Below, in pieces: positions 11,728 to 18,685 of a DNA stretch of 64,000 nt. The position numbers and the translations under genes are program-made. Each line of letters starts with the position of its first letter. Positions within the stretch are counted from its first letter, which is position 1. Below the pieces are notes generated by a model that had not been told where the DNA came from, searched no databases, and was given only the letters and a program-made list of their open reading frames with translations. Source of the stretch: Oceaniferula marina (GTDB lineage: Bacteria > Verrucomicrobiota > Verrucomicrobiia > Verrucomicrobiales > Akkermansiaceae); contig NZ_JACBAZ010000002.1 of NCBI RefSeq assembly GCF_013391475.1, positions 711,837-775,836 on the forward strand, in the 5' to 3' direction.

Positions 11728-13050
11728 TTACTCGTTGTATGCCGGGGCTCCATGCTCGGCAACGTCGAGTCCCTCGTGTTCTTCTTTTTCGTCGACACGC
11801 ACACCCATGATGAGTTTCAGCAGGAAGAAGAGGGCGAAGGAGAAGATAAAGGCAAAGGCGCAAACGGTGATGATACCAATCAACTGAGAGCTGAAGGATG
11901 CACCTCCGAAGAAGGCAACAGCAAGGGTTCCCCAGATACCGCAGACACCGTGCACCGAGATGGCACCGACAGGGTCGTCGATCTTGATTTTGTCGAAGAA
12001 CAGGATGGAGAAGACCACGATCACGCCGGCCACACCACCTGCCACGATGGACATGGTTGGGGAGATGGCGTCGGCTCCGGCGGTGATCCCGACCAGACCG
12101 GCGAGGAATCCGTTGAGGGTCATGGAAAGGTCAGGCTTTTTCAGCACGATCCATGAAGTGGCCATACAGGCAAGGGCTCCGGCGCAGGCGGCGAGGGTGG
12201 TGGTCACAAAGACGGTGGAGACACCCTGGGCGTCAGCGGAGAGGACCGATCCACCGTTGAATCCGAACCAGCCGAGGAAGAGCAGGAAAGCTCCGATGGT
12301 GGCCAGGGGAAGGTTGGATGGCAGGATGGGCTTCAGGCCGTCTTTGGTGTATTTGCCACGGCGGGGTCCGAGCACGATCACACAGGCGAGGGCTGCGAAG
12401 CCGCCGAAGGCGTGAACCACGGTGGATCCAGCAAAGTCGTAGAACCCTTTGTCGGCAAGGAAACCAGTTCCCCAGTGCCAGGAACCGGCGATTGGGTAGG
12501 CAAAGGCAACCAGCAGGGTGGCGAAGATCAGGAAGGAGGTCAGTTTAACGCGCTCGGCAACCGCACCGGAAACGATGGTGGCGGCGGTGGCTGCAAACAT
12601 GGCCTGGAAGATAAAGTCGGACCAGTAGGTGTAGCCTGCGTTGTATTCGGAGGTGAAATTGGCGGCGGTGCCAGGTTCAGCAGCAGCCATGCCACCGATG
12701 CTCAGGAAGCCGTTCCATGCGCTGGGGTCCACTCCACGATCACCGGGATAGTGGGTATTAAAGCCAACGAAGTAGTAGGTCAGCACGCCCATGGCGATGA
12801 TGAAGCAGTTCTTGAACAGGATGTTGACGGTGTTTTTGCGTTGGCAGAGGCCGGATTCAAGACTGGCGAAGCCGAGGTGCATGAGGAAGACAAGAGCTGC
12901 GGAGATCAGGATCCAGAGGTTGTTCAATGCGAACTTCACATATTCTGCGCTCGCCTCGAACTTAGCATATTCGCTGGGTTCGTCTGCTGCAAGTAGCGTG
13001 CCCGCTCCGAGCAGGAGAAGGGAGGCCGGTAGGATGGATTTGATGGTCAT
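11728..13050 (-). CDS. amt: Ammonium transporter (Amt/MEP/Rh), copy 1
   Basis: 440-residue inner-membrane channel moving ammonium into the cell. It has an N-terminal signal-like segment (to about LLAADEP) and the expected 11 hydrophobic helices. The pore twin-His pair is visible in STVVHAFGG and SVHGVCGIWG, with the conserved Asp in YDFAGS. The loop FNTHYPGDRGVDPSAWNGF is longer than in copy 2. No glnK/PII gene adjoins it. It is divergent from copy 2, with a sigma-54-type promoter about 60 bp ahead of the ATG. Confidence 0.93.
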   Translation of the reverse strand: MTIKSILPASLLLLGAGTLLAADEPSEYAKFEASAEYVKFALNNLWILISAALVFLMHLGFASLESGLCQRKNTVNILFKNCFIIAMGVLTYYFVGFNTHYPGDRGVDPSAWNGFLSIGGMAAAEPGTAANFTSEYNAGYTYWSDFIFQAMFAATAATIVSGAVAERVKLTSFLIFATLLVAFAYPIAGSWHWGTGFLADKGFYDFAGSTVVHAFGGFAALACVIVLGPRRGKYTKDGLKPILPSNLPLATIGAFLLFLGWFGFNGGSVLSADAQGVSTVFVTTTLAACAGALACMATSWIVLKKPDLSMTLNGFLAGLVGITAGADAISPTMSIVAGGVAGVIVVFSILFFDKIKIDDPVGAISVHGVCGIWGTLAVAFFGGASFSSQLIGIITVCAFAFIFSFALFFLLKLIMGVRVDEKEEHEGLDVAEHGAPAYNE

Positions 13051-13110: not shown

Positions 13111-13127
13111 AGCACTCCGCGTGCCAA
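13111..13127 (-). promoter_or_regulatory. Sigma-54-type promoter for amt copy 1
   Basis: The minus strand reads TTGGCAC-GCGGA-GTGCT: GG of the -24 box and GC of the -12 box are exactly 10 nt apart. The -24 box is perfect; the -12 box has G in place of the first T of TTGC. Predicted start near 13100, leaving a leader of about 50 nt. Confidence 0.6.
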
Positions 13128-13164: not shown

Positions 13165-13182
13165 TTGGCATGGCCATTGCTT
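13165..13182 (+). promoter_or_regulatory. Sigma-54-type promoter for amt copy 2
   Basis: TTGGCAT-GGCCA-TTGCTT, with correct 10-nt spacing between GG (13167-13168) and GC (13179-13180). It deviates from consensus only at the last base of the -24 box. Predicted start near 13192, about 87 nt before the ATG. Confidence 0.68.
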
Positions 13183-13278: not shown

Positions 13279-14565
13279 ATGAGAACATTGAACACATTCC
13301 TACTTTCCGCGGCTGTGATGCTGGCGGGTTCCGTTTCCGTGATGGCCGCAGAGGCCGAAGCGAGTATTGATTCCGGTGATACCGCTTGGATGCTGACTTC
13401 CACCTTGCTGGTGTTGATGATGTGCCTTCCCGGTTTGGCTTTGTTTTACGGCGGGTTGGTCCGTGCGAAAAACGTGTTGAGTATCTTTGTGCAGTGTTTT
13501 GCCATGGCCGGTGTGATGTCTCTGCTCTGGGTGGCCTTTGGTTACGCCGTGGCCGCAGGTGAGGGGGGCAATGCCTTTTTCGGTTGGGATTCCAAGATGT
13601 TGTTCCTCAACCATCTCACGGATGAGTCCGTTTCAGGAAGTATCCCTGAGAGTGTCTGGATTACCTTCCAGATGACCTTCATCATTATCAGTCCCGCAAT
13701 CATTGTCGGGGCCTTTGCCGAGCGAATGAAGTTTGCGGCAGTTTTGATTTTTACGATTCTCTGGACGGTGCTTTCCTATCTGCCGATGTGGCACATGGCC
13801 TGGGGGGGTGGCTTGTTCCATCACTGGGGCGCGATCGACTTTGCCGGAGGTAACGTGGTGCACATCAATGCCGGTATCGCCGGTTTGGTTGCCTGTTTGT
13901 TTGTGGGGAAACGCAAAGGGTTCCCCGGGCCGGCATTGGTGCCTCACAATGTGCCTTATGTCCTGATTGGTGCCGCCTTGCTGTGGGTCGGTTGGTTTGG
14001 ATTCAATGCCGGGTCGGCGGGTGCAGCCAGCGCAAGCGCCGGAATGGCAATGTTGACCACTCAGATTGCGACGGCAGCTGCGGTGGTTGTCTGGATGGCG
14101 CTTGAATGGATTATTTCCAAAAAGCCGACCGCTGTGGGTGCCGCCACAGGTGCCGTTGCTGGTTTGGTTGCGATCACTCCGGCTGCCGGATCCGCGGGCG
14201 TCATGGGAGCCATGGCGATGGGTGCGATTTCAAGTTTGGTGTGTTATTTTGCCGTCACCACGCTGAAGCACAAACTCAACTACGACGACAGCCTGGACGT
14301 TTTTGGCGTGCACGGCATGGGGGGGATTGTTGGGGCTTTGCTGACGGGGGTGTTCATCCGGGGCGAAGACGGTGGCAGTGTGCTGCAGTTTTGGATTCAG
14401 GCGAAGAGCGTGATGGTTACGATCGTCTGGAGTGGCCTTGCTGCAGCCTTTGCGCTGACGGTCGCCAAGGTGCTTTGTGGAGGACTTCGTGTGGCTGAAG
14501 AGGTCGAAGACGGGGGGCTTGACCGGACGGATCACGGTGAGGAAGCCTACAACTGGGAGTCCTGA
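13279..14565 (+). CDS. amt: Ammonium transporter (Amt/MEP/Rh), copy 2
   Basis: 428 residues starting at ATG 13279. There is a signal peptide (about 1-23, ending VMAAEA), then 11 predicted membrane helices. Twin His residues lie in GNVVHINAGIAG and FGVHGMGGIVG, with Asp in IDFAGG. It is closer to classical AmtB (LALFYGGLVRAKN, FQMTFIIISPA) than is copy 1, so the two are distinct paralogues rather than a recent duplication. Thirty-eight extra in-frame upstream codons overlap the sigma-54-type promoter and are not coding. A strong terminator follows. Confidence 0.94.
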   Translation: MRTLNTFLLSAAVMLAGSVSVMAAEAEASIDSGDTAWMLTSTLLVLMMCLPGLALFYGGLVRAKNVLSIFVQCFAMAGVMSLLWVAFGYAVAAGEGGNAFFGWDSKMLFLNHLTDESVSGSIPESVWITFQMTFIIISPAIIVGAFAERMKFAAVLIFTILWTVLSYLPMWHMAWGGGLFHHWGAIDFAGGNVVHINAGIAGLVACLFVGKRKGFPGPALVPHNVPYVLIGAALLWVGWFGFNAGSAGAASASAGMAMLTTQIATAAAVVVWMALEWIISKKPTAVGAATGAVAGLVAITPAAGSAGVMGAMAMGAISSLVCYFAVTTLKHKLNYDDSLDVFGVHGMGGIVGALLTGVFIRGEDGGSVLQFWIQAKSVMVTIVWSGLAAAFALTVAKVLCGGLRVAEEVEDGGLDRTDHGEEAYNWES

Positions 14566-14588: not shown

Positions 14589-14632
14589 AAGGCCGCTTCG
14601 GGTGAATTTCCCCGGGCGGCCTTATTTTTTTT
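14589..14632 (+). terminator. Terminator of amt copy 2, overlapping the sulfatase stop
   Basis: Stem aaggccgc/gcggcctt (14589-14596, 14616-14623), then A and eight T residues. The convergent sulfatase gene ends at 14622, so its stop codon lies in the right arm. Confidence 0.9.
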
Positions 14633-16214
14633 GTTTCCCCTTGTTTTCCGGAACCCCCGATTTTTTTAGACGCGGGGGAGTTTTCCCCGATACCGGAGCA
14701 TTGGTTTTGCCTTTGAGTTGGCCTTTCTTTTTAGCGATCTGGTGCCAGAGTTGAGCCATGGTCTTGACTTTTTCCGGCATGCTGCTGGCGAGATTGTGCA
14801 TTTCCGTGCCGTCGTTGGTGATGTGGTAGAGCTCCCATTGGGAGGCTCGGTGGGTGACGAGTTTGTAGTCGCCTTGGATAATGGCGCGGTTGGAGCTGTA
14901 TCGAAAAAAGAGTTCCTTGTGTCCGGCCCGTTGTTTTCCTTTGAAAATCGGATCCAATGACTTTCCTTCCAGAGCTTGCAGCTCGATGTCGGGCCAGTTG
15001 GTAGGATACTGGGTGTCGGCGAGGTCGATGCAGGTGGCCATGAAGTCGATGAGGTGACCTGGTTGGTGGGTGACGCTTCCGGGTTTGGCTGTGATTCCTT
15101 TTGGCCAGTGGGCGATGAGGGGGGAGGAGATACCTCCGGCGTGTTGGTTTTGTTTGTGTAAGCGGAACGGGGTGTTGCCAACGTGGGACCAACCGGTGTC
15201 GTAACACCAGTAGGACTCCGGGTCCCATGGGTCTTTGTCTTTGCCTTTTGTCCGATCGAAGGGGCAGGCACCATTGTCGGAGCAGATGAGAATCAGAGTG
15301 TTGTCGAACAGTTGGTTTTGTTTGAGATAGTTGACCAGGCTCCCGGTGGTTTGATCGATGCGGTCGACCATGCCGGCGAAGGCCATCATGCGTCGGGTGT
15401 CCCATTGCTTGTCTTCGTCGCTGAGCTTTGACCAGGCGGGAACGAGCTCCGGGCGAGGTGCAAGTTTCCAGCCATCCGGGATGAGTTTCATGTCCCGTTG
15501 CTTTTGGAAACGCTTGGCTCGGATCTTATCCCAGCCCGTATCGTAGATGCCTCGGTATTTATCGTAATCTTCTTTTTTGACCTGAAGCGGGTAGTGTGGA
15601 GCGTTGTGGGCGATGTACAGGAAAAACGGTTTGTCGGGTGACTCTCGGCGGGTTTCATCGAGAAAACGGGTGGCAAAGGTGATGTTGGCATCGGTGGTGT
15701 AGAAGTCGGGGCCGAAATCGTCCCATTTTTGCCCATTCAAGCGGAAGGATTTGTCTCCTTTGAAGAAATTGGTCGCGCCGGAGAGGTGACCAAAATATTT
15801 TTCAAACCCGCGGTCAGTGGGCTCTTTGGTCAGGTGCCATTTGCCGACCATGGCGGTGCGGTACCCCGCTTTGCCAAGGACTTCGGCAATGGTTACACCC
15901 CGGCTTAGCTTGGAATCACCTGCCTGATCGCTGTAGAGACCGGTGAGCAGGGAGACTCGCGATGAGTGGCACTTGGCGGTGTTGTAGAATGAGCTGAACC
16001 TCAGCCCATTGGATGCGAGGCTGTCGATGTTCGGGGTTTGGATTTCGCTTCCGTAGCAGCCGAAGTCCGAGTAGCCGAGGTCGTCCACCATCATGATGAT
16101 GATATTGGGGCGTGTGTCTTGGCGGGCCGTTTTAGCGTGTGTGAGTGACAGGCAAGACAAGGTGGTGAGAAAGATCAGAAGAGTGTGGTGTAAGGTCATG
16201 AGTGGTTGGGCCAT
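14622..16214 (-). CDS. Secreted type I sulfatase (arylsulfatase-like), CxSSR motif
   Basis: 530 residues: an N-terminal hydrophobic segment (signal peptide ending LTHA, about residue 27; M6 is an alternative start), the alkaline-phosphatase-like sulfatase domain, and a Lys-rich tail. Metal ligands are Asp44/Asp45 in MMVDDLGYSDFG. The formylglycine site is Cys82 in KCHSSRVSLLTG, i.e. C-x-S-S-R instead of C-x-P-S-R. Further family motifs are GKWHL and SDNGA. It probably removes sulfate from algal or animal glycans in the periplasm or outside. No formylglycine-generating or anSME maturase is present in this window. Confidence 0.9.
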   Translation of the reverse strand: MAQPLMTLHHTLLIFLTTLSCLSLTHAKTARQDTRPNIIIMMVDDLGYSDFGCYGSEIQTPNIDSLASNGLRFSSFYNTAKCHSSRVSLLTGLYSDQAGDSKLSRGVTIAEVLGKAGYRTAMVGKWHLTKEPTDRGFEKYFGHLSGATNFFKGDKSFRLNGQKWDDFGPDFYTTDANITFATRFLDETRRESPDKPFFLYIAHNAPHYPLQVKKEDYDKYRGIYDTGWDKIRAKRFQKQRDMKLIPDGWKLAPRPELVPAWSKLSDEDKQWDTRRMMAFAGMVDRIDQTTGSLVNYLKQNQLFDNTLILICSDNGACPFDRTKGKDKDPWDPESYWCYDTGWSHVGNTPFRLHKQNQHAGGISSPLIAHWPKGITAKPGSVTHQPGHLIDFMATCIDLADTQYPTNWPDIELQALEGKSLDPIFKGKQRAGHKELFFRYSSNRAIIQGDYKLVTHRASQWELYHITNDGTEMHNLASSMPEKVKTMAQLWHQIAKKKGQLKGKTNAPVSGKTPPRLKKSGVPENKGKQKK

Positions 16215-16346: not shown

Positions 16347-16363
16347 TTGGCACGGTGTTTGCT
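16347..16363 (+). promoter_or_regulatory. Perfect sigma-54 consensus ahead of the porin gene
   Basis: TTGGCACGGTGTTTGCT matches the -24/-12 consensus TTGGCACG-N4-TTGCT at every specified base. The predicted start (about 16374) is only about 6 nt before the ATG at 16380, leaving no room for the GGAAGG ribosome-binding site in the transcript. Either the message is near-leaderless, or the site acts otherwise. Confidence 0.5.
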
Positions 16364-16379
16364 GGAAGGTGATTTGATT

Positions 16380-17141
16380 ATGAACAAATCAATCCAATCC
16401 ATTATTCTTGGCAGCAGTCTGCTTGTAGCGGCCCCTGCCTTCGCCGGCGTCGCCACTGAAATGCCTCCCGCTCCTGCAGCCGAGTCTCCGTTTGAATTTG
16501 AAATCCACACTGGATACCACTCGATTTATGAGTTCCGTGGTGTTGATTTTGGTGACGACCTCTGGGAAGCGGGTATCGACGGTAGCTATGCCATCTCCGA
16601 CACACTCTCTTTGAGTGGTGGTCTCTGGTATGCCGACAACGTCGACTTCGACGAGCTTGACCTTTACCTTGGCTTGACCAAGAGCTTTGAGCACTTCGAC
16701 CTCAGCGTTGGTTACACCTACTACCTTTTCCCCGGTGACAGCGATGCCGACACCCAGGAGTTCTACGTCGGTGCTTCCACAGAAGTGGCATGGGGAATCG
16801 GCCTTGGACTGACCTATTTTTACGACTTTGATTTGATCGAAGGTGGTTACCTTGAGTTGGAAGCTACCAAGAGCTTCTCTCTGACTGATTGCCTTGGTCT
16901 CGACTTTGCTGTCGGTGCGGCTTGGAGCTTTGACTACAACGGTGACGTTGACGGTGGTGACCTCGACGGGTTCAACCACTGGTATGCCAGTGTCGCCCTT
17001 CCTTGGGAAATCCGTGAAGGTGTAACCCTCGCTCCTTACGCCAAGTTTGTGGGTGCAGGATCTGACCTCAACAATGAATACGACGCCGACGCCAGCGAAG
17101 ACCTCTTCCTCGGTGGTGCCGTCCTTACCGTGACCTTCTAA
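16380..17141 (+). CDS. Outer-membrane beta-barrel protein, TorF/Gcw_chp-like putative porin
   Basis: 253 residues with a clean signal peptide (MNKSIQSIILGSSLLVAAPAFA), a short Pro/Ala linker and alternating amphipathic beta strands ending in the aromatic residue F (LTVTF), typical of outer-membrane barrels. The strand pattern starting YHSIYEFRGVDFG resembles the TorF-family/Gcw_chp proteins. It is strongly acidic, with many D residues in loops. Codons are biased to gac, ctt/ctc and ggt compared with neighbours, suggesting high expression. The start at 16380 is fixed by the signal peptide and an AAGGTGA site. It has its own strong terminator. Confidence 0.8.
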   Translation: MNKSIQSIILGSSLLVAAPAFAGVATEMPPAPAAESPFEFEIHTGYHSIYEFRGVDFGDDLWEAGIDGSYAISDTLSLSGGLWYADNVDFDELDLYLGLTKSFEHFDLSVGYTYYLFPGDSDADTQEFYVGASTEVAWGIGLGLTYFYDFDLIEGGYLELEATKSFSLTDCLGLDFAVGAAWSFDYNGDVDGGDLDGFNHWYASVALPWEIREGVTLAPYAKFVGAGSDLNNEYDADASEDLFLGGAVLTVTF

Positions 17142-17170: not shown

Positions 17171-18685
17171 TTATTCAGTTTGTCTGGAAATTGGGGATTC
17201 GCTTTGGCGGGTCCCCAATTTTTTTGTTGGTCGTTGAAACGACCAGATATCCGTCGAATCATCAGGCTCTGGCTGAACGCGGGAATAGTCTTTTGCGTAG
17301 AGCTTCGCGCTGTAGCCTGTCCAATAGGCGGCGGAAGCAAACATCGGTGGGCGTTCCAGGCTGACTTCCCATTGAAGCCGCTTTTTGAGCAGTTGTTTGA
17401 CGATTTCGGGGTGCTTGTGAATGACGTTGTTGGTTTCTCCAATATCTTGGGCAAGGTTGTAGAGCTGCGGCATGCTGCTGTTGGGAATGAGCAGTTTCCA
17501 GTCGCCTGAGCGGATGGCTGAGCCGCGCAGGACGGTTCGCCAGTGAAGAGTTTGGTGGGGGACTTCTGTGATCTCACCTTTGAAGTGGGGGATTAAGTTG
17601 ACGCTGTCGTAGATGCGGCGTTTTTTCTTTTTTGTTAGTGAGCTGGTCTCGGGAAGTGTGCCTTGAGCTGCGCTGACAAAGGTAGCCATGAAGTCCAGTG
17701 ATATCACCGGTTGGGGGTACACCTTCGGTTGAAGCTGTGCGGGCCAGTGATAAATCGTGGGTACCCGGATACCTCCTTCGAGGAAGGTTCCTTTGCTGCC
17801 ATTCAGCGGGGCATTGACCGCGTGACTCACTTCTACAGACCCTCCGTTGTCGGAGATAAAAACAATCAGAGTGTTTTCGAGCTGTTTGTTTTTTTGAAGA
17901 TGGTCGATGATCTTTCCGATATTTTGATCCATGCAATGCTGCATGGCACAGTAGATGCGGCGGGTTTTTGGCTCGATGTGTTTGTATCGTGCGATGTCTT
18001 CCGGCTTCGCCTGCATTGGTGAGTGCGGGCTGTTGTAAGAGAGATACAAAAACCATGGTTGCTCTTGGTTTGTTGTTTTGGCTTTGCCCTGGCCCTGGAT
18101 GAAATCGAGGGCCTCAAGCGTGAACCAATCCGTGAGGTAAGGGACGCGGATGCTTGATACTTTTTCCCTGTTATACAGGAGTTTGTTCTGATCGCTTGTT
18201 GGAAAGTATGAGTGTCCGCCACCGAGCATGCCAAAAAAGAAATCAAACCCGCGGGCGTTCGGGTGGTGTTCTGGTAGCGCTTCTCCCACATGCCATTTTC
18301 CCACGATGCCGGTGCGATACCCCAGCTTTTTTAAGCGGTCACTGATCAGTGGTTCATCCAGTGGGATTCCGGCAAATTCCGGACGCAGGTAATCAGGTTG
18401 GTGGAGGTTGTGTTCAAAACCAAATCGTGACCCATACCTTCCAGTTAGTAATCCAGCTCTGGACGGGGCACACACAGAGCCTGAGACGTATCCATCGGTA
18501 CAGCGGACGCCATGCGCGGCCAGCCGATCCAAATGTGGTGTGGAAATCTGTTTGGACCCATAACAGGAGAGATCACCGTAGCCCATGTCATCGGCAACGA
18601 TCAGCAGAATGTTGGGGCGGTCATCTGCCTGAACAATGGCGGTGCCACAGGAGATTAATGCGAGAAGGAGTATACGAAAAGTCAT
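17171..18685 (-). CDS. Secreted type I sulfatase, CAPSR motif
   Basis: 504 residues with a signal peptide (about 1-20, ending IVQA) and the sulfatase fold. Asp32/Asp33 in VADDMGYGDLSCYG bind calcium. Cys72 in SVCAPSRAGLLTGRYG is the canonical formylglycine precursor. GKWHVG and ISDNGG complete the active-site set. The protein resembles periplasmic arylsulfatase A-type enzymes acting on sulfated polysaccharides; the substrate cannot be read from sequence. The last residues (about QSESPISRQTE) overlap the porin terminator. It is a distant relative of the other sulfatase rather than a tandem copy. Confidence 0.92.
   Translation of the reverse strand: MTFRILLLALISCGTAIVQADDRPNILLIVADDMGYGDLSCYGSKQISTPHLDRLAAHGVRCTDGYVSGSVCAPSRAGLLTGRYGSRFGFEHNLHQPDYLRPEFAGIPLDEPLISDRLKKLGYRTGIVGKWHVGEALPEHHPNARGFDFFFGMLGGGHSYFPTSDQNKLLYNREKVSSIRVPYLTDWFTLEALDFIQGQGKAKTTNQEQPWFLYLSYNSPHSPMQAKPEDIARYKHIEPKTRRIYCAMQHCMDQNIGKIIDHLQKNKQLENTLIVFISDNGGSVEVSHAVNAPLNGSKGTFLEGGIRVPTIYHWPAQLQPKVYPQPVISLDFMATFVSAAQGTLPETSSLTKKKKRRIYDSVNLIPHFKGEITEVPHQTLHWRTVLRGSAIRSGDWKLLIPNSSMPQLYNLAQDIGETNNVIHKHPEIVKQLLKKRLQWEVSLERPPMFASAAYWTGYSAKLYAKDYSRVQPEPDDSTDIWSFQRPTKKLGTRQSESPISRQTE
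17189..17226 (+). terminator. Terminator of the porin gene, inside the sulfatase 3' end
   Basis: Nine-bp stem aattgggga/tccccaatt (17189-17197, 17212-17220) followed by a T run. The same bases encode the C-terminal residues of the convergent sulfatase (stop at 17171). Confidence 0.9.

Follow-up and report, generated by a model that had tools for sequence, protein, structure and literature searches.

A conserved putative sigma-54 promoter at leaderless distance from the start codon of an outer-membrane porin gene

We found a sigma-54 core element with a full consensus match 17 bp before the start codon of an outer-membrane porin gene, and comparison with relatives makes it quite probable that this element is a working promoter of the ammonium/PII regulon whose porin mRNA is leaderless or has a leader of 2-7 nt. 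The window denotes the whole stretch of DNA that was analysed, 64,000 nucleotides of an Oceaniferula marina contig (Table 1). Positions 16347-16363 read TTGGCACGGTGTTTGCT, and the ATG of the TorF/Gcw_chp-like barrel gene is at 16380. The -24 GG lies at 16349-16350 and the -12 GC at 16361-16362, with 17 bp between the C of the GC and the A of the ATG, and the element agrees with the core TGGCACG-N4-TTGCW, with GG and GC at -24/-12, at 12/12 positions. This direct reading confirms the preliminary description of this DNA, which had reported a perfect sigma-54 consensus 17 bp before the ATG of a barrel gene. Sigma-54 elements are described at -24 and -12 relative to the transcription start (PMC4842269, PMC11704786). 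When the C is counted as -12, the nominal +1 would fall at 16374 and leave a 6-nt leader, and if transcription began at the purine 16376 or 16377, 4 or 3 nt would remain. The GGAAGG motif at 16364-16369 is upstream of this nominal +1, in agreement with the earlier claim of a leader of about 6 nt that excludes it.

Table 1. Positions of the features discussed in the window
Feature	Coordinates	Strand	Remarks
amt1, ammonium transporter	11728..13050	-	top NCBIfam score is for the marine-subtype model, below that model's cut-off
amt1 sigma-54 site	13111..13126	-	11/12, 61 bp from ATG
amt2 sigma-54 site	13166..13181	+	11/12, 98 bp from ATG at 13279
amt2, ammonium transporter	13279..14565	+	profile match
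Sulfatase gene between amt2 and porin	14622..16214	-	missing from this place in genus relatives compared
Sigma-54 core promoter (putative), TTGGCACG-N4-TTGCT (N4 = GTGT)	16347..16363	+	-27 to -11, read directly
Shine-Dalgarno-like GGAAGGTGAT (GGAAGG 16364-16369; AAGGTGAT)	16364..16373	+	upstream of predicted +1; not conserved
Predicted transcription start region	16374..16377	+	from the -24/-12 rule
TorF/Gcw_chp-like outer-membrane porin, 253 aa, signal peptide	16380..17141	+	Pfam PF09694, E 3.6e-8
Second sulfatase gene, directly downstream of porin, convergent	17171..18685	-	profile match
Terminator-like hairpin and T-tract after porin gene	17186..17223	+	scan: 2 such sites in region, 1.3 expected in shuffles

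The match alone is modest evidence. The porin element is the sole zero-mismatch TGGCACGNNNNTTGCW in the 64-kb window, in which 14 matches with at most two mismatches were found against 11.8 expected. In the 5.07-Mb genome, there are three perfect matches (the porin site, one inside an open reading frame, and one upstream of a PII-like gene at 45 bp), and the 48 matches with at most one mismatch compare with 36 for the reversed pattern, which indicates that most near matches are noise. Because of these numbers, the match alone is not decisive; the chance figure of 0.002 given in the preliminary description is correct for 13 fixed bases of even composition, but it does not settle the matter. Judged by sequence comparison, what chance does not account for is that the site recurs at a constant distance from the start codon.

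Homologs were collected from a 145-genome family search in which at least 125 of the 145 genomes matched, and those analysed are the better matches among the matches listed. The 126 rows were handled by one procedure with hand corrections; L056, which has no N-terminus, was dropped, and L073 and L221 (site at 15 bp) were removed by a 150-bp filter, leaving 123 homologs. For L066, L069, L071-L074 and L076, the ATG that aligns with the start codon of the window was chosen by hand in place of the automatic choice, an upstream in-frame ATG that lies 8 bp from the element in L069, L071 and L072 and inside it in L066. L070, L212 and one frame of L215 were without a usable ATG. Sites of at least 11/12 within 260 bp were found in 37/123 homologs (at least 150 bp upstream; among the matches listed), and these fall into two groups by the distance from the C to the ATG, 27 at 13-18 bp and 10 at 61-80 bp, with none elsewhere. 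In L226, which is among the 27, the C of GC is replaced by A. As controls in the same 123 homologs, the reversed pattern gave 0/123, and the antisense strand gave 5/123, scattered, some of which may be true divergent-amt sites. The fixed spacing has a binomial p of about 1e-35 under an assumption of gene independence that does not hold. The alternative that the element is a chance match with no role could draw on the genome-wide counts of perfect and near matches, but the recurrence at a fixed distance in six genera and the empty reversed control make it practically negligible.

Lowering the threshold to 10/12 added two sites and gave 29 short-class genes (g1, 10; g9, 8; g10, 5; g16, 3; g6, 2; g14, 1), so that the short layout is present in 6/12 genera scanned. 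The g14 member, L154, has its site at 16 bp. The remaining genes comprise 17 of the long class, 2 of a middle class (both in g1) and 75 without a site; at the 11/12 threshold, 86/123 homologs have no site, including three paralogs from the window's own genome. L092, with a degenerate element at 14 bp as judged by eye, was left out of the counts. In a 121-row tree made by a quick method, short versus long requires at least 3 changes, and short versus all else, site-less genes included, requires 11 changes versus 25.5 in shuffles. The short genes lie in separated parts of this tree: a group with g1 and g14, a g10 group, and a group with g9, g6 and g16. Comparison with close relatives, proposed in the preliminary description as a check with loss of the element as the refuting outcome, showed that the short layout is kept in 10/13 genus loci with enough upstream DNA, and the remaining loci have the site at 37-38 bp (two) or no site (one). 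None of the 51 homologs (47 loci, among the matches listed) from five further families of the order had the short layout, and their 13 sites of at least 10/12 were all at 64-224 bp. Since the sites of the five other families all lie at these longer distances, the short layout looks derived within one Akkermansiaceae-like family. In three loci (L247, L249 and L250), tandem porin copies lie beside amt2, and the short layout, at 14 bp, is confined to the second copy.

The porin spacing was compared with that of amt and PII genes. Where a site was found in the genus, it lies 28-61 bp before amt1 and mostly 93-110 bp before amt2 (one at 58 or 94), a further amt copy (L158) has it at 182 bp, and four PII genes measured have it at 41-45 bp. 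In other genera, amt sites, where found, are 23-77 bp from the signal-like start; L082 and L102 each have a closer in-frame ATG than the signal-like start that was taken, at 0 and 10 bp, respectively. In the loci scanned, the 13-18 bp class contained no amt or PII gene whose start was unambiguous, and several amt loci had no sigma-54 site in the scans. For the porin, spacings of 13-18 bp predict leaders of 2-7 nt, or of 0-5 nt if transcription starts two bases later.

We compared the spacers for ribosome-binding sites. In the window, the duplex energy of the Shine-Dalgarno (SD)-like GGAAGGTGAT is -13.1 kcal/mol for an extended 16S tail, which was assumed, and -5.0 kcal/mol for the CCUCC core; the sequence beats about 99% of shuffles and is well spaced for the ATG. 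Pairing with the CCUCC core under -4 kcal/mol was found in 3/29 short, 0/17 long and 2/75 site-less genes; thus 26/29 short-class genes have no site pairing CCUCCUUA under -4 kcal/mol, the exceptions being L068, L208 and the window. With the assumed extended tail, 28% of the short class pairs under -6 kcal/mol versus 0% of the long class and 1% of the site-less genes, and the spacers of 8/29 short-class genes, all in g1 and g10, beat 90% of shuffles versus about 3 expected. The SD picture is therefore mixed, in that SD-like sequence appears not conserved by the CCUCC core and appears enriched by the assumed extended tail; the SD-like spacers would be accounted for if some species had a minor start further upstream. 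A rough comparison of the first ATGs of 38 open reading frames in the window with internal ATGs showed no SD excess. The three bases before the ATG read RYY in 24/29 short, 5/17 long and 35/75 site-less genes, a bias that suggests a start at -3 and proves nothing. In a genus-weighted profile of the 29 short-class regions, most flanking positions carry less than 1 bit and the element 1.5-2 bits; the rows were chosen by their match to the element, so its own bits are circular and the low flanking conservation is the informative part. A T-rich patch near -40 may derive from terminator tails. The preliminary description had left the choice between a nearly leaderless mRNA and an element that is not a standard promoter, and the former is favoured because six genera retain a spacing of 13-18 bp, whereas the GGAAGG site is not conserved.

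The SD-like sequence of the window is strong and well spaced, and some members of g1 and g10 have SD-like spacers as well, which would fit a leadered mRNA that comes from an upstream sigma-70 promoter or from read-through, carries GGAAGGTGAT and is translated, with the sigma-54 site giving a minor or second, leaderless start. In the window, about 165 bp lie unoccupied between the divergent sulfatase gene and the porin ATG, so another promoter is possible there, but a scan from 16180 to the ATG found no plus-strand sigma-70 match. In eight genus relatives (L065, L066, L068, L069, L071, L072, L075 and L077), the end of amt2 is followed by a terminator-like hairpin with a T-tract and then by the element, all in the last 105-120 bp or so before the porin ATG. 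Five of the eight were folded, and four had z-scores of -3.9 to -5.6 versus shuffles, with -1.75 for L065. This layout would leave little room for another promoter in these relatives. A scan of 5800-6100 in L146, from the same species as L066, gave one terminator-like site and no sigma-70 site. In addition, there was no -10 excess in the short class, with TANNNT 3-12 nt before the ATG in 7/29 genes versus 7.4 in shuffles, and the best combined sigma-70 score had a mean of 8.0 over the 29 genes versus 7.6 in shuffles. With the SD-like sequence also not conserved, we consider a leadered mRNA of this kind unlikely. A sigma-70 promoter overlapping the element was considered and rejected: by eye, the TTG-like bases around -34 would suit a spacing of 17 bp, but A is missing from the second -10 position and no enrichment was seen.

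The sigma-54 holoenzyme is inactive when it binds, and widespread intragenic binding is described in E. coli (PMC4591121), which would be consistent with a silent sigma-54 polymerase at the site that serves as a roadblock or repressor, blocking or tuning transcription, with no start there. However, the hairpin upstream of the element in the eight relatives would leave little transcription to block, the site is of full strength, and the neighbouring nitrogen genes have it at a normal distance. Such a role is very unlikely.

The porin gene and its start codon were then considered. The Pfam Gcw_chp model PF09694 scored 34.1 against a cut-off of 24, whereas the NCBIfam model TIGR02001 (TorF family putative porin) scored 40.2, below its cut-off of 47.15, so membership in the TorF family is loose. 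A structure model built from 13 sequences has 12 long strands and one short strand (pLDDT 75, pTM 0.75; residues 1-34 below 50). Its top structural match in the PDB is the KdgM porin (Z 17.1, rmsd 2.3 over 167 residues), tied with the autotransporter NalP (Z 16.9) and FapF (16.6), and followed by the NanC porin (15.4), with identities of 6-14%; a sequence search of solved structures gave no relative (best E 0.12). The model and these matches support an outer-membrane barrel and fix neither its solute nor its family. As read from the sequence, the ATG at 16380 is the sole plausible start. In the window, 98 bp separate the element from the next in-frame ATG, which lies beyond the signal peptide, and no GTG or TTG start is compatible with the signal peptide. 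The residues after the ATG align across 14 relatives, each row having been begun at its own ATG, so that the matching M is by construction; the ATG start of 29/29 short-class genes is likewise by construction, ATG alone having been considered in start calling. In some relatives, a second ATG 21-24 nt downstream would permit an ordinary transcription start with translation beginning further downstream, behind a normal leader. A wrongly chosen start codon of this kind is highly improbable, since in the window, L103 and L104 the signal-peptide region contains no ATG after the start codon, and the later ATG, where present, would cut the positively charged beginning of the signal peptide.

The genes around the porin point to nitrogen. 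In the window, amt1 and amt2 are divergent, and each has its own sigma-54 site, in line with the earlier claim of a sigma-54-controlled amt pair near the porin. The two sulfatase genes look inserted around the porin, the gene order being otherwise conserved in the relatives compared. The element and ATG are intact as a unit despite these flanking genes. The order amt1-amt2-porin was found, as far as the contig reaches, in nine genus relatives (L065, L066, L068, L069, L071, L072, L075, L077 and L208). A pyrophosphatase-like gene lies 3' of the porin in L065, L066, L068, L071 and L075, which are all those reaching far enough, plus L067, L070 and L073. L067, L074 and L076 have amt1 and the porin with no amt2 between them; in these three loci, the absence of amt2 coincides with absence of the short porin layout (37 bp, 38 bp and no site). 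An amt gene adjoins the porin in loci of seven other genera (g7, g9, g10, g11, g13, g14 and g16), and none was found beside it in L092, L094 and L103, loci of 7-7.5 kb. The genome has one copy of rpoN and 13 Sigma54_activat matches, two strong and 11 weak. One strong match is an enhancer-binding protein that adjoins an NtrB-like kinase and has an apparent C-terminal helix-turn-helix (domains by eye); the other strong activator (L105) is apparently without a DNA-binding end, also by eye. No NtrC-type GCAC/GTGC dyad was found before the porin, amt or PII genes, except one overlapping the amt1 sigma-54 site, and a search upstream of the same genes for inverted repeats with exact 6-bp arms gave none that was informative; an enhancer site of another motif or at a greater distance is possible. 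The amt sites, the perfect site of the PII-like gene, rpoN and the amt-porin adjacency in the genus and in seven other genera favour the nitrogen link that the preliminary description had suggested. Taken together, context and synteny support membership of the porin in the ammonium/PII regulon, and from them we infer the nitrogen response, the activator and the activity of the promoter.

In the reading that we prefer, under nitrogen limitation an enhancer-binding protein, probably the NtrC-like one beside the NtrB-like kinase, would activate the bound sigma-54 polymerase, and transcription would start about 12-14 bp past the C of GC. By the nominal rule, this start would be 2-7 nt before the AUG across the family and 6 nt in the window, and therefore the porin mRNA would be leaderless in the usual sense (5' UTR below 8 nt). 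The 5'-proximal AUG would be used for translation without SD contact, and the barrel product would presumably widen the entry of a small nitrogen solute for the Amt transporters. The element, its recurrence at fixed spacing, the lack of a conserved SD sequence, the regulon context, the synteny and the barrel model were seen directly, and we infer from them the transcript end, the mode of translation and the solute. Counting against this explanation are the well-spaced SD-like sequence of the window, which would be odd if it were never transcribed; the richness of the short class in SD-like sequence with the extended tail (8/29 spacers versus about 3 expected); and the missing NtrC-type dyad, the roughly 165 bp free in the window, the three genus exceptions and the 86/123 site-less homologs. 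It is also conceivable, although rather unlikely, that the gene is purposely locked into leaderless expression, in which case a sigma-54 start 2-7 nt before the AUG would, under nitrogen starvation, route the message to 70S-type leaderless initiation. Starvation would shift the pools of free subunits and initiation factors, and the transcription switch and the mode of translation would form one device, which would have arisen in one family from a 60-80 bp layout and stayed within about 5 bp over deep divergence, the ancestral layout being an ordinary one.

The porin element shares its core with the sigma-54 nitrogen promoters of amt and glnB/glnK, a core present at amt1, amt2 and the PII-like gene of this genome. 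However, those in the genus lie 28-110 bp from the ATG (one amt at 182 bp) and are leadered, whereas the porin element lies at 13-18 bp with a predicted leader below 8 nt. Core promoters abutting the start codon and giving leaderless mRNA are described in Deinococcus-Thermus, where a -10 element is adjacent to open reading frames (PMC12340547); that element is a sigma-70 -10, whereas the one at the porin would be an activator-dependent sigma-54 -12, so far in one gene family. A 5' UTR below 8 nt is termed leaderless in an archaeal context in PMC10783764, where Akkermansia muciniphila is named as SD-scarce. In this bacterium, probably of the same family as the window species, 10% of mapped starts are reported as leaderless versus 0.4% in E. 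coli (PMC4782308), which suggests a probable relative able to translate leaderless messages. That study describes -35/-10 motifs, and the parts consulted name no sigma-54 case; in genus g3, our guess for Akkermansia, the porin has weak matches at best. A start-site study of a bacterium with many leaderless mRNAs lists an AmtB that has a sigma-54 site (PMC5243855). In our reading of these papers, discussion of leaderless mRNAs mostly concerns housekeeping -10 promoters, and the portions consulted name no sigma-54-driven leaderless gene. If our preferred explanation is true, a conserved, activator-dependent sigma-54 promoter this close to the start codon would link translation without an SD sequence to an all-or-none nutrient switch, an uncharacterised porin family would thereby be tied to ammonium uptake, and the genera with long spacing would be natural controls for the leaderless layout.

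Other sigma-54-like sites were noted in the genome and its relatives. The PII gene, also matched by Pfam P-II (G000:C2:439659-439976), has the site TTGGCACGATGCTTGC (L006 1501-1516), which is identical in the ten relatives printed (L188-L200), save for the first T in L192. The names DnaK, pyrophosphatase-like, pantothenate-kinase-like, ROK-like and NtrB/NtrC-like were assigned by eye. The 16-bp sigma-54-like TGGCACCATACTTGCT occurs on two contigs (L128 and L134; C10 and C17) and is possibly a repeat. On the minus strand of L129, an 11/12 sigma-54 site precedes the ATG of a DnaK-like gene by 105 bp, which recalls the sigma-54-controlled chaperone genes of other phyla.
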